Program-made: the position numbers and the translations under genes | The notes under the pieces: generated by a model | Database searches by the model: none | Seen by the model: only the letters and a program-made list of their open reading frames with translations | Told to the model about the DNA's origin: nothing | Source: Rhodocyclaceae bacterium | Lineage (GTDB): Bacteria; Pseudomonadota; Gammaproteobacteria; Burkholderiales; Rhodocyclaceae | NCBI GenBank assembly: GCA_019455325.1 | Contig: JACFMQ010000002.1 | Coordinates: 145,353 to 209,352 of the forward strand | DNA: 64,000 nucleotides | Direction of reading: 5' to 3' | In this document: positions 1 through 20,351 of the stretch, piece after piece | Layout of the letters: each line of letters starts with the position of its first letter | Position numbering within the stretch: the first letter of the stretch is position 1

Positions 1-761
1 AGCTCTCCACGGCCAATATCGCCGCCTTCGACAGCGTACAGATCAAGTCTCTGACTGCCGCACAGCTCGGCCAGATGACTTCCGCCCAGATCGCCGCCAT
101 CGAAACCGCCGATCTCGTGGCCATGACCGCCGCGCAGATCAAGGGCTTCTCCACCGCCAGCATCGTCGCGCTCACCACCGAGCAGGCTGCGGTGCTGCAA
201 TACGCGCAGATCGCCGCCCTCACCACCGAGCAGGTCAAGGCCATCGAAACCGCCGATCTGGCGGCACTGAATACGGCCAGCATCGGCGGACTGAGCGCTG
301 CGCAGATCAAGGCGCTGACCAGCGACCAGGTAACGAACCTCGCCTCCGACCAGTTCAAGCTCCTGAGCGCCACCCAGGTGGCCGCCCTTTCGTCCGATCA
401 GGTCGCCAAGCTCTCGACCACCAACATCGAGGCGCTGACCACCGCGCAGGTGAAGGCGCTGACCAGCGAACAGGTCAGCGCACTCACCTCCAGTCAGGTG
501 AAGGCGCTGGAAACCGACGATCTGGTGGTCTTCTCTGCCACCCAGATCAAGGCGCTCGGCACCGATCAGATCAAGACCGGTTTGACCTCCGATCAATTCA
601 AGACGCTCAGCGCAATGCAGATCAGCAGCCTGCTCACGAGCCAGATCGAGGTGTTGACCACGAATCAGATCAACGCCATGACAAGCACTCAGGTCGCGGC
701 ACTGACTCCGGATCAGGTCGGCGCCATGAACACCGATCAGATCGCTGCACTCCCCATCTGA
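1..761 (+). CDS. Octapeptide-repeat protein, C-terminal part (5' end outside window)
   Basis: The reading frame is open from the first bases of the window, so the gene begins upstream and only about 252 C-terminal residues are visible. Nearly all of it is an eight-residue repeat of the form L-[ST]-x-x-Q-[IV]-x-[AG], with occasional acidic units such as IETADLAA. There is no cysteine, membrane segment or catalytic motif. The last 200 residues align unit by unit with the C-terminus of the larger repeat protein at 2911-6408. The match includes one shared nine-residue unit ending DQIKTG and the unit LQYAQIAA, so the two genes are tandem paralogs. The stop codon is followed by a strong hairpin. 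The function is unknown. A surface or secreted structural role is inferred from the repetitive, low-complexity, Ser/Thr-rich composition and the glycosyltransferase next door. Confidence 0.8.
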   Translation, partial: LSTANIAAFDSVQIKSLTAAQLGQMTSAQIAAIETADLVAMTAAQIKGFSTASIVALTTEQAAVLQYAQIAALTTEQVKAIETADLAALNTASIGGLSAAQIKALTSDQVTNLASDQFKLLSATQVAALSSDQVAKLSTTNIEALTTAQVKALTSEQVSALTSSQVKALETDDLVVFSATQIKALGTDQIKTGLTSDQFKTLSAMQISSLLTSQIEVLTTNQINAMTSTQVAALTPDQVGAMNTDQIAALPI

Positions 762-800
762 TCGCACACAGGCTGACGCCCGTCCGCCGCACTGCCACGC

Positions 801-836
801 CGCCCAATACCCCCCGAACTCCGGGGGTATTGGGCG
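801..836 (+). terminator. Strong hairpin after the first repeat gene
   Basis: A 14-bp perfect inverted repeat (801-814 with 823-836) encloses an 8-base loop 40 bases after the stop codon. There is no U-tract, so it may be a weak or RNA-stabilising terminator. A near copy follows the second repeat gene at 6452-6486. Confidence 0.65.
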
Positions 837-859
837 CGTTACCTTCAGCTCAGTAAATT
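830..859 (+). promoter_or_regulatory. Promoter-like element overlapping the hairpin arm (copy A)
   Basis: TTGGGC at 830-835, inside the right arm of the hairpin, lies 18 bases from TAAATT at 854-859. The same arrangement, TTGGGC-18-TAGAAT, recurs at 6480-6509 after the second repeat gene. A start site here would fall very close to the TTG start of the downstream gene, so this copy may be weaker or non-functional. Confidence 0.35.
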
Positions 860-877
860 TGCTTCAGGGAACCGGTC

Positions 878-17615: not shown

Positions 17616-17705
17616 ATTGGATCAGGCAAGCCATGATGCATGGCAACCCCGGTCAGATGGCTTGGACCGAAGCTGCCAGTTCGGCACCGATAGCGGCATG
17701 CTAGT

Positions 17706-17724
17706 CTGACACCCTCGGTGTCAG
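17706..17724. terminator. Hairpin between convergent genes
   Basis: CTGACACC and GGTGTCAG pair around a three-base loop. It lies between the end of the transketolase half and the end of the minus-strand fusion gene. There is no clear U-tract on either side, so it could act weakly in both directions. Confidence 0.45.
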
Positions 17725-17733
17725 CTGAAAAAT

Positions 17734-19899
17734 CTACTTCACTGGCGTCGCTTTCGGGTCGGCAATTGCCACTCGAATGATATTGGACAGGGATTCGCCA
17801 TCGAAAGCGTATGCCCCGGCGGCCATTTCGTTCATTTTCGACGGTAGTGCGAGAAGCCTGTCAACGACTTCATCCTTCTTGCACGAAGCGATCTCCCGCG
17901 CCCAGAGGAATGTGCGGTTCGCATAATAATCGGCCAGCCCGGATTCCCCGATTCGCCGATAGTAAAGAAATAATGAATAGCTGGTCATGAGGTCGAGTAT
18001 CCATCTCCCCTCCCGACTCTCGCCGGTAAATATTCCGCCCGAATGCTGGCGGTGTATCGAAGGCAGAACGCTATCGAGGTAGTGCCCGCGACCGTGCCAT
18101 CCGATCAGTGACCACAGGAACATGTCTCCCGCTCCGGTGGTGTAATGCTCGGGCGGAATCGGCTGGATCAGGTTGCGGAACATGACCGTCAGACTATTGA
18201 TCGGCGGCGCCTGCTTCAGCTCATCCACTGTCAGGTCGCGCCGGTTTCCGCCAACGTAGGAATAGTCGAGGCGGGGCATCTGCCCATGACGATGGGAATT
18301 GACGGTGGAATATACGATGGCAACATCGGGATTAGACTCCAGGTAATCCACCTGTTTCTGGAGTTTTTGCCTGTCCGCCCAGTAATCGTCTCCTTCGCAG
18401 AGGGCAATGTATTTGCCCTTTGCCTGGGAAATCAGATTTATGAAATTTCTGTTCGCTCCCAGATTTTTCTCGTTGAAGAAAGGCCGGAGCGTACATCGTT
18501 GATTGCTGGAAAACTCTTCTATCACCTGCCGCGTCGCATCGGTGCTGCAATCCTCGCCGATCAGAACCTCGTAATCGAAATCCGTTTCCTGGTGCAGGAA
18601 CGAATCAAGCGCATCGCGGATCAGGGGCGCATGGTTGTACGTGATGCAAACCACGCTGACCAGCGGTTTCTTGCTCCTCGTTCGGCGGGCCGGGCGGCGG
18701 CCTGCCGGCGCAGGAACGTCGGTGAGCGCCTTTTTCCTGAACAGGAAAAAGGGTTCCTTGGCGTTGACGCCCAGCACCGTGGCGACGGTCGAATCAAACA
18801 AGGAGTCGTGCGACGCAACCAGAGGGTCAAGATGCGCGGAGAATCTCTCGAAGATATCGCGCCCGAAAAGCCGCACGTGGTCTTCCTGCCCGTAGAACTC
18901 CAGGCGCAGCGCATCCGTATCGATTCCCGGGTCTTCAAAAGTTTTATGCAGAACGCTGGAATAAGGCGTTTGCAGAATGGCGATGCCATCCGCCTTCAGG
19001 ACGCGACTTATCTCCACCAGAGCAGCGTCCGGGTCGGCCACGTGTTCCATGACGTGATTGGCGATCACATAATCGAACGAGGCATCCGAATACGGTATTT
19101 TTTCGATGTTTATCTTTTCGAAGCGAAGATCCTGCGAGTAAGGATCGGCAAAGACATGCACCTCCGGGTCGAACTGCGCAATATGGGAAACGAATCCCCA
19201 CTCCGGGGCAAAATGCAGTATTCGCGCGTCCTTTTTCAGGACATCGAGCACCGTGCAGTAAAGTTTCAGGTGCCGCTCCCTGTCGGTGCAGGCGCAGTGC
19301 GGGCAGGCGAAATTATCGGGATCCGAGCCGATCACGTCCAGCGATACCATCGCATGCGGCTGATTGCGCCACCCGCCGCGATAGGGAAGGAAGCGTTCGA
19401 CTTCCCCCTGGCAATAGTTGCAGTATTTTTTATGCGACGGGGCATCCGGCGCGGCCACGGGTTCGGCCGCAGCGCCGAGCCGCTCCAGATGGCCGAGGGC
19501 GATGCCGAGAAGCGTCGGGTCTGCCACTGCCGTCCGTTTCAAATCCTGAACGGCCGCCTGCCAGTCCTTGACCGCCTCTTCCGGGCGCCCCAGCAACTCG
19601 CGCACCGCCCCCAGGTCGATGCGCGCCTGGACGAAATCGGGTTTCTGCCTCAAGGACGCCAGGTAGGCAGCCTCCGCACCGGCGAAGTCTCCTGCTGCTT
19701 TCAGCAGAATGCCCAGGTTGAACTGGGCAGCCCAATCCACGGGCGACGCGGTGGATTTCAACCACTGTCGATAAATCGCGATGGCTTCCTCGCGCTTGCC
19801 TTCGGCCAGCAAGGACTCCGCCTGGTTGATGGTTTCACTCAGATCGGGCCGGTGTTTTTTGCCTGTAGACCGACGATGGGAAGAAGAGGCTTTGGTCAT
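17734..19899 (-). CDS. TPR-methyltransferase-GT2 glycosyltransferase fusion
   Basis: This 721-residue multidomain protein has TPR-like helices at about 20-120, then a zinc-ribbon-like set of cysteines (160, 163, 199, 202). A class I SAM methyltransferase follows, with HFAPEWG at 229-235 and NHVMEHV at 281-287. A basic linker leads to a GT-A family 2 glycosyltransferase from about 412, with GEDCSTD at 448-454 and EGDDYW at 502-507. One polypeptide may therefore both methylate and transfer a sugar. Such combinations are known in flagellin and O-antigen glycan loci. The start at ATG 19899 fits the domain start but lacks a clear ribosome site; the frame stays open upstream to 20100. GC content is lower than in its right-hand neighbours. 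It converges with the sugar cluster and is its likely glycosyltransferase. Confidence 0.82.
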   Translation of the reverse strand: MTKASSSHRRSTGKKHRPDLSETINQAESLLAEGKREEAIAIYRQWLKSTASPVDWAAQFNLGILLKAAGDFAGAEAAYLASLRQKPDFVQARIDLGAVRELLGRPEEAVKDWQAAVQDLKRTAVADPTLLGIALGHLERLGAAAEPVAAPDAPSHKKYCNYCQGEVERFLPYRGGWRNQPHAMVSLDVIGSDPDNFACPHCACTDRERHLKLYCTVLDVLKKDARILHFAPEWGFVSHIAQFDPEVHVFADPYSQDLRFEKINIEKIPYSDASFDYVIANHVMEHVADPDAALVEISRVLKADGIAILQTPYSSVLHKTFEDPGIDTDALRLEFYGQEDHVRLFGRDIFERFSAHLDPLVASHDSLFDSTVATVLGVNAKEPFFLFRKKALTDVPAPAGRRPARRTRSKKPLVSVVCITYNHAPLIRDALDSFLHQETDFDYEVLIGEDCSTDATRQVIEEFSSNQRCTLRPFFNEKNLGANRNFINLISQAKGKYIALCEGDDYWADRQKLQKQVDYLESNPDVAIVYSTVNSHRHGQMPRLDYSYVGGNRRDLTVDELKQAPPINSLTVMFRNLIQPIPPEHYTTGAGDMFLWSLIGWHGRGHYLDSVLPSIHRQHSGGIFTGESREGRWILDLMTSYSLFLYYRRIGESGLADYYANRTFLWAREIASCKKDEVVDRLLALPSKMNEMAAGAYAFDGESLSNIIRVAIADPKATPVK

Positions 19900-20351
19900 G
19901 AGGAAAGGATCCAGGAATGTGTGCGGGTTGAGAAATATGACGCGCTGGATGACGCCCCAAGCATAGTCGTCCGAGTTTGATCGTTCTTTGTCTGCCGTTT
20001 TTTCTATCCCACGGTCGCTGCGCTTCATGGCCGCGCAGCGCCACGGCATGGTAGAGAGTATCAAACGTGCGGTAAAAATGTTCCGTGCGCCAACTCCCAA
20101 GCAATGGGAGTTGATCGAGTGTCTGCAAAAAACCGGCCCCTTGGCGTCCGTGCCCTCGGCTGCGGAGTGGTGAGCTGACGGAAAGCGTCACGCCTGCACT
20201 TCGACGCAAGCCTGGCCGGCACCTTGGCAGCGCCGGTGAGTGTGGTCAGTATCAGACTCGTATCCACACCTTGCATTCCCCTCCCGTTTCCTGAAAAATA
20301 ACCAATCACTTGCTTGCTTAAAAAACAATCAACACTTCAGGAGACAGTTTC
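19900..20351. other. Intergenic region before fadH
   Basis: No convincing gene is seen here. The region holds the divergent upstream sequences of the minus-strand fusion gene and fadH. It contains a 9-bp hairpin with a 5-base loop at 20091-20113 and, just before fadH, an A/T-rich stretch with AGGAGACAG as the ribosome site. The minus frame of the fusion gene runs on open to 20100 through weak starts. Short open frames in the rest look like chance. Confidence 0.5.

Follow-up and report, generated by a model that had tools for sequence, protein, structure and literature searches.

Which protein does a glycosyltransferase modify, and with which sugar, when its gene lies between two genes for octad-repeat proteins? 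We investigated this question for a 64,000-nucleotide stretch of a Rhodocyclaceae bacterium (the window; G000:C24:145353-209352, within a 4.46-Mb genome), in which a TPR-GT41 enzyme is flanked by two repeat proteins, A and B, of the Pfam family ALTTAQ (PF20080), followed by a twelve-gene cluster (6571-17615) and by a fusion of TPR, methyltransferase, and GT2 domains (Table 1). All these elements, named in an earlier reading of the letters alone (the original prediction), were confirmed by Pfam. We consider it fairly likely that the core of the locus is a two-gene cassette, in which the soluble TPR-GT41 would glycosylate Ser/Thr residues of a giant ALTTAQ protein in the cytoplasm; the donor sugar would be strain-specific, and might here come from the cluster.

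The pair is recurrent. We sampled 101 genomes of the family, 17 of them with PF20080. Any match to the GT41 enzyme, TPR-only matches included, occurs in 83 of the 101, and a match of at least 300 bits occurs in 13 of the 17 ALTTAQ genomes vs. 13 of the 84 others (Fisher P = 1.7e-6). In all 13 (G000, G008, G011, G016, G017, G018, G020, G029, G056, G069, G071, G081, and G094), GT41 and ALTTAQ share one contig and lie at most 25 kb apart, a limit set after seeing the data. We also scanned GTDB genomes with a GT41 alignment, keeping the best 79 distinct loci of at least 567 relatives, and detected the repeat by hidden Markov model (a regular expression misses irregular octads, e.g., in L090 and L091). 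ALTTAQ is present within 10 kb at 47 of the 79 loci; 12 same-family control loci gave no match. The open frame lies within 1 kb of the GT41 match at 32 of the 47 loci and within 5 kb at 43, and at 27 the ALTTAQ gene has the orientation of GT41 and ends 72-942 bases ahead of it. These loci include Beta-, Gamma-, and Alphaproteobacteria, and also metagenome-assembled genomes labelled Thermodesulfobacteriota and Acidobacteriota, where binning errors are possible; the neighborhood singled out in the original prediction recurs over several classes of Proteobacteria. Because the two are recurrent neighbors, the obvious candidate for the enzyme's substrate is the repeat protein.

The association is also visible in the GT41 tree, where 16 rows of the 19-row clade containing the window enzyme have ALTTAQ and the other three have less than 3 kb of upstream sequence. 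The tree shows 16 changes between presence and absence of ALTTAQ vs. a mean of 24.7 after shuffling (0 of 500 shuffles as low), figures that are approximate; L102, L112, and L116, on a branch 5.7 units long, have probably been translated in the wrong frame, and L128 was left out. Among plasmids, ALTTAQ was found in 60 records (the last few weak) and GT41 in 100, and the best 22 GT41 records all carry ALTTAQ, the distance between best matches being about 8 kb or less; the records are not independent, 11 of those with ALTTAQ being Cereibacter sphaeroides. The neighbors gmd and rfbF do not separate GT41 loci with and without ALTTAQ among the 79. A 562-aa protein without Pfam match (L048:9390-11078) occurs at 8 of the 79 loci, 7 of which are without ALTTAQ.

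The window GT41 (P0003) belongs to the OGT subgroup, its GT41 domain being preceded by an N-terminal TPR. Its closest solved structure is XcOGT (2jlb, E = 9.5e-89), followed by the 110-kDa OGT subunit, with SPINDLY more distant; an HMW1C-like N-glycosyltransferase identity was rejected, given this best structure and a TPR where an AAD domain would be expected. Residues H260 and K429, which we take to be the catalytic His and Lys of GT41, align to XcOGT and are invariant in 10 of 10 aligned ALTTAQ-linked GT41 sequences (P0003 and nine others, 35-65% identical to it). With catalytic-type His and Lys retained, an O-glycosyltransferase function is predicted. P0003 is the sole full GT41 match in its own genome; of two further matches, the one listed corresponds to the TPR region of the GT2 fusion. 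Judged by sequence, the pair is probably a glycoprotein and its enzyme, and cytoplasmic O-glycosylation of the repeat protein appears to be the best reading.

Several observations weigh against it. Four of the 17 ALTTAQ genomes of the family (G021, G038, G077, and G088) have no strong GT41 nearby, and for 32 of the 79 GT41 loci the available flanks are free of ALTTAQ, 12 of these loci having both 10-kb flanks complete; some GT41 enzymes of this kind are truly without an ALTTAQ neighbor. Among the 60 GT41 plasmid records listed (of 100), only 27 are ALTTAQ records, and in one of these (CP131057) the best ALTTAQ and GT41 places are 364 kb apart. In the full tallies, Shinella plasmids have 13 ALTTAQ vs. 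at most one GT41 record, and Rhizobium 17 vs. 8. As regards export, type I secretion system (T1SS) genes are no commoner beside GT41 with ALTTAQ (11/47) than without (7/32), no ABC transporter match is listed near the window pair (C24, 71-226 kb), and no export signal was seen by eye in either window repeat protein. Furthermore, at least 7 of the 17 ALTTAQ genomes of the family (G008, G018, G020, G029, G038, G069, and G081) have ALTTAQ and flagellin no more than 15 kb apart, so that GT41 could serve flagellin there, which keeps alive an alternative weighed below.

The identity of the repeat is firm. PF20080 scores are 940.7 bits for protein B and 219.1 bits for the A fragment vs. a curated cut-off of 26.4; the repeats cover most of the length of B, and a tandem DNA array at 3358-5988 has a 408-bp unit in 6.4 copies with 94% matches. 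The array and the scores together rule out chance similarity. The repeat thus belongs to a catalogued family rather than to a new one; the original prediction called it Ser/Thr-rich, and its Ser+Thr content is moderate, not extreme (19.6% in B, 23.4% in the A fragment). Gene A begins at C24:144102, upstream of the window, and a 100-N assembly gap (G000:C24:145253-145352; L009:15901-16000) cuts through it immediately ahead of window position 1, perhaps an assembly break caused by the repeats. Contigs of several relatives likewise end within ALTTAQ genes. PF20080 is the main Pfam match of the window proteins and of the one public relative scanned (Rhodovastum, annotated as hypothetical). Public plasmid records label ALTTAQ proteins "heme utilization protein", "large exoprotein involved in heme utilization or adhesion", or "ICE nucleation protein".

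The most frequent letters of the protein B octads spell A-L-T-T-D-Q-I-K, and position 3 may also be E or S, position 4 S or A, position 5 A, position 7 V or L, and position 8 A; B has no Cys, no Trp, and four Asn sequons. An AlphaFold2 model of its last 300 aa, made with ten sequences (pLDDT 94.1, pTM 0.84), contains 36 helices of 4-7 residues each, about one per octad. In the secondary-structure string of this model, Thr at octad position 3 tends to precede a helix and position 4 tends to begin one; both positions are presumably exposed. The repeat matches PDB entry 9zem, "HeliScrew4" (E = 5.7e-17 with a single sequence, 7.7e-29 with a profile), which is likewise made of LTPEQIAAL-type octads but is 120 aa long. 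We searched the open-access literature (subscription journals and preprints lay outside this scope): ALTTAQ and HeliScrew are named in no paper found, the string PF20080 is a grant number in one case and otherwise returned off-topic titles, and combined-word searches returned only papers titled on other matters.

In the mechanism that we propose, the ALTTAQ protein would form a continuous screw, each eight residues making one short helix, and the TPR-GT41 would attach sugars to octad Ser/Thr (positions 3 and 4) in the cytoplasm, ahead of export. The donor sugar would vary from strain to strain. Here, a modified amino sugar might be supplied by the adjacent, apparently acquired cluster (aminotransferase, acyl, and transketolase genes), with the GT2 fusion perhaps lengthening or methylating it.

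The distribution of the cluster differs from that of the pair. Its gene families stand as originally described, and the "acyl-amino-sugar" product is inferred. Full-length LuxE (>350 bits) is present in 4 of the 101 family genomes (G000, G007, G072, and G074), with partial matches of at most 33 bits in 16 more; LuxE occurs in one of seven genomes of the genus at an E threshold of 0.001, and in the class, at 1e-30, 4 of 369 genomes have it. Full-length LuxE and ALTTAQ coincide only in G000, PF20080 being absent from G007, G072, and G074, where LuxE lies within 9 kb of flagellin in each. In the class, G379 has a set of acyl carrier protein (ACP), short-chain dehydrogenase (SDR), AMP ligase, LuxE, and LuxC genes; nine stretches from G379, G323, and G453 gave no ALTTAQ match (in G323 and G453 the gene calls are too few to read). 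Plasmid pRlX2 of Rhizobium beringeri carries 10 of the 12 cluster genes, all but DegT and the family-less gene (window 7723-17615 vs. L167:8314-19367), with identities of 49% (transketolase N-terminal subunit, TktN), 50% (C-terminal subunit, TktC), 46% (PglD), 57% (ACP), 36% (AMP ligase, in two frames), 46% (LuxE), 39% (LuxC), 77% (FabZ), 52% (GMC), and 43% (SDR); the window ALTTAQ and GT41 proteins have no match in this stretch, nor is flagellin annotated there. Among plasmids, 34 records contain LuxE, and Rhizobium accounts for 10 of these (neighborhoods inspected for R. beringeri pRlX2 and Ponticoccus). At the 47 ALTTAQ-GT41 loci, whose flanks are often short, LuxE, LuxC, and strong DegT matches number zero. 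Because the module is present near flagellin without ALTTAQ, on a Rhizobium plasmid, and at none of the 47 pair loci, it looks mobile, acquired, and separate from the ALTTAQ-GT41 core. The original prediction of one dedicated pathway for repeat protein and sugar cluster is not supported by this distribution; it had itself named, as grounds for refutation, repeat proteins and cluster occurring apart in relatives, and for the sugar cluster this is what we observed.

The cluster may then make a surface polysaccharide, a lipid, or a free metabolite unrelated to the pair, its position being an accident of insertion. We rate this alternative, which concerns the cluster only and is compatible with the pair, as a serious possibility, if short of an even chance. 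Besides the pRlX2 copy and the zero count for LuxE and LuxC at the pair loci, it is consistent with the genes near the G379 LuxE module, which look by eye like dTDP-sugar genes, and with TktC relatives in the family, which are 36-44% identical and found in 7 of 100 other genomes at E = 1e-50. The DegT gene, absent from the Rhizobium copy, argues the other way by tying the cluster to GT41 loci: relatives 53-75% identical occur in 13 other family genomes, with GT41 within 15 kb in at least eight, and G056 has the order ALTTAQ, GT41, DegT. The cluster is also on the same strand as repeat gene B, about 160 bp behind it. The local cluster may therefore feed the GT41, the best evidence being the proximity of DegT and GT41.

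A further alternative is that GT41 and sugar cluster form a flagellin glycosylation system now lying beside ALTTAQ genes, with flagellin as the substrate. Besides the flagellin-linked LuxE clusters of three family relatives and the ALTTAQ genes near flagellin, at least 8 of the 13 other genomes with a DegT relative have flagellin no more than 25 kb from it, and FlmG provides an example of a cytoplasmic enzyme acting on flagellin. The likeness to flagellin islands holds in kind: PMC7874193 and PMC4875605 describe ACP, 3-oxoacyl-ACP reductase (FabG), AMP ligase, LuxE, and LuxC in Aeromonas group II and enterobacterial islands, a set present in the cluster, and in Enterobacteriaceae also DegT and, once, FabZ. 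The window cluster differs in having a split transketolase, a GMC oxidoreductase, and GT41/ALTTAQ beside it. It does not lie beside flagellin genes: three of the four flagellin matches are in tandem on C20 (the fourth's place is not listed) and the cluster is on C24, the joining of these contigs not being known. The C20 flagellins lie behind PseB, PseC, PseG, and PseI equivalogs (over cut-off) and an 810-aa TPR protein, the last 324 residues of which have no Pfam match, which weakens the flagellum as the target first suggested for this genome. Furthermore, 42 of the 47 ALTTAQ-GT41 loci have no flagellin match in the available flanks, and flagellin is not among the annotated genes of the Cereibacter and Pseudomonas plasmid stretches. 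We therefore regard flagellin as an unlikely substrate. Least likely, given the tight upstream adjacency at 27 of 47 loci across distant taxa, is that GT41 modifies other proteins of the cytoplasm and leaves ALTTAQ proteins bare; in favor of this reading are the many GT41 relatives without ALTTAQ and the many ALTTAQ plasmids without GT41.

If the ALTTAQ protein is the substrate, the pair would be a variant of a known scheme, a soluble GT41 next to its surface-protein substrate, with HMW1C as precedent and FlmG as analogy. According to PMC3983070, HMW1C is a soluble GT41, encoded near the giant exported HMW1A, that modifies it in the cytoplasm, has an AAD domain instead of TPR, transfers hexose to Asn, and serves an adhesin exported by two-partner secretion; the window has the TPR-OGT type, four Asn sequons in protein B, and no two-partner secretion gene noticed. 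FlmG of Caulobacter, a cytoplasmic transferase, likewise modifies a surface protein ahead of export (PMC7591256), but its substrate is flagellin and its sugar pseudaminic acid, whereas the window GT41 lies with ALTTAQ and on another contig than flagellin.

T1SS genes were considered as a fixed third partner and rejected for want of enrichment; they lie near the pair at Pseudomonas and Cereibacter plasmid loci and in G020, G069, and G081. Five of six aligned giant relatives end in a domain with DxNGDG-like stretches, which the window proteins do not have. In G081, relatives of ABC genes on contig C2 of the window genome adjoin ALTTAQ, and the closest G000 relative of the G081 T1SS is this C2 system, beside a 2101-aa DUF4214 protein. 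C2 (L174:14108-20000, L175:1-11470) has tandem T1SS ABC genes, HlyD, and a gene that by eye resembles TolC.

Table 1 Genes of the repeat-protein, glycosyltransferase, and sugar-cluster region (window positions)
Feature	Position	Strand	Basis
ALTTAQ-repeat protein A, C-terminal part, 252 aa	3..761	+	PF20080 E 3.4e-66; gene start upstream, across assembly gap
TPR-GT41 glycosyltransferase, OGT type	878..2710	+	PF13844 E 4.1e-80, TPR
ALTTAQ-repeat protein B (P0004), 1165 aa	2911..6408	+	PF20080 E 1e-291, 33 stretches
DegT/DnrJ/EryC1 sugar aminotransferase	6571..7710	+	PF01041 E 2.4e-103
NeuD/PglD-type sugar acyltransferase	7723..8397	+	TIGR03570 over cut-off; PF17836
ACP-like protein	8412..8651	+	No Pfam match; 57% identity to annotated ACP, Rhizobium beringeri
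AMP-binding acyl ligase	8668..10098	+	PF00501 E 1.7e-40
LuxE-like acyl-protein synthetase	10095..11195	+	PF04443 E 3.1e-50
LuxC-like acyl reductase	11188..12405	+	PF05893 E 6.1e-25
FabZ-like hydroxyacyl-ACP dehydratase	12402..12893	+	PF07977 E 9.2e-25; NF000582 over cut-off
GMC oxidoreductase	12896..14500	+	PF05199, PF00732
Family-less protein, 168 aa	14497..15003	+	No Pfam, no NCBIfam match
SDR	15023..15766	+	PF13561 E 5.6e-58
Transketolase N-terminal subunit	15780..16610	+	PF00456 E 5.4e-41
Transketolase C-terminal subunit	16632..17615	+	PF02779, PF02780
TPR + S-adenosylmethionine methyltransferase + GT2 fusion	17734..20100	-	PF00535 E 1.1e-23, PF08241, TPR; start codon uncertain

We would go further only tentatively, to a widespread, undescribed class of protein glycosylation in which giant screws of one helix per octad, densely O-glycosylated in the cytoplasm by a dedicated GT41 and with nucleotide-sugar modules exchanged among strains, would form a sugar-coated surface rod. 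For the ALTTAQ proteins, which are large and occur in many proteobacteria, a recurrent GT41 neighbor would give the family its first testable function, and it would offer a set of bacterial OGT homologues a natural target.

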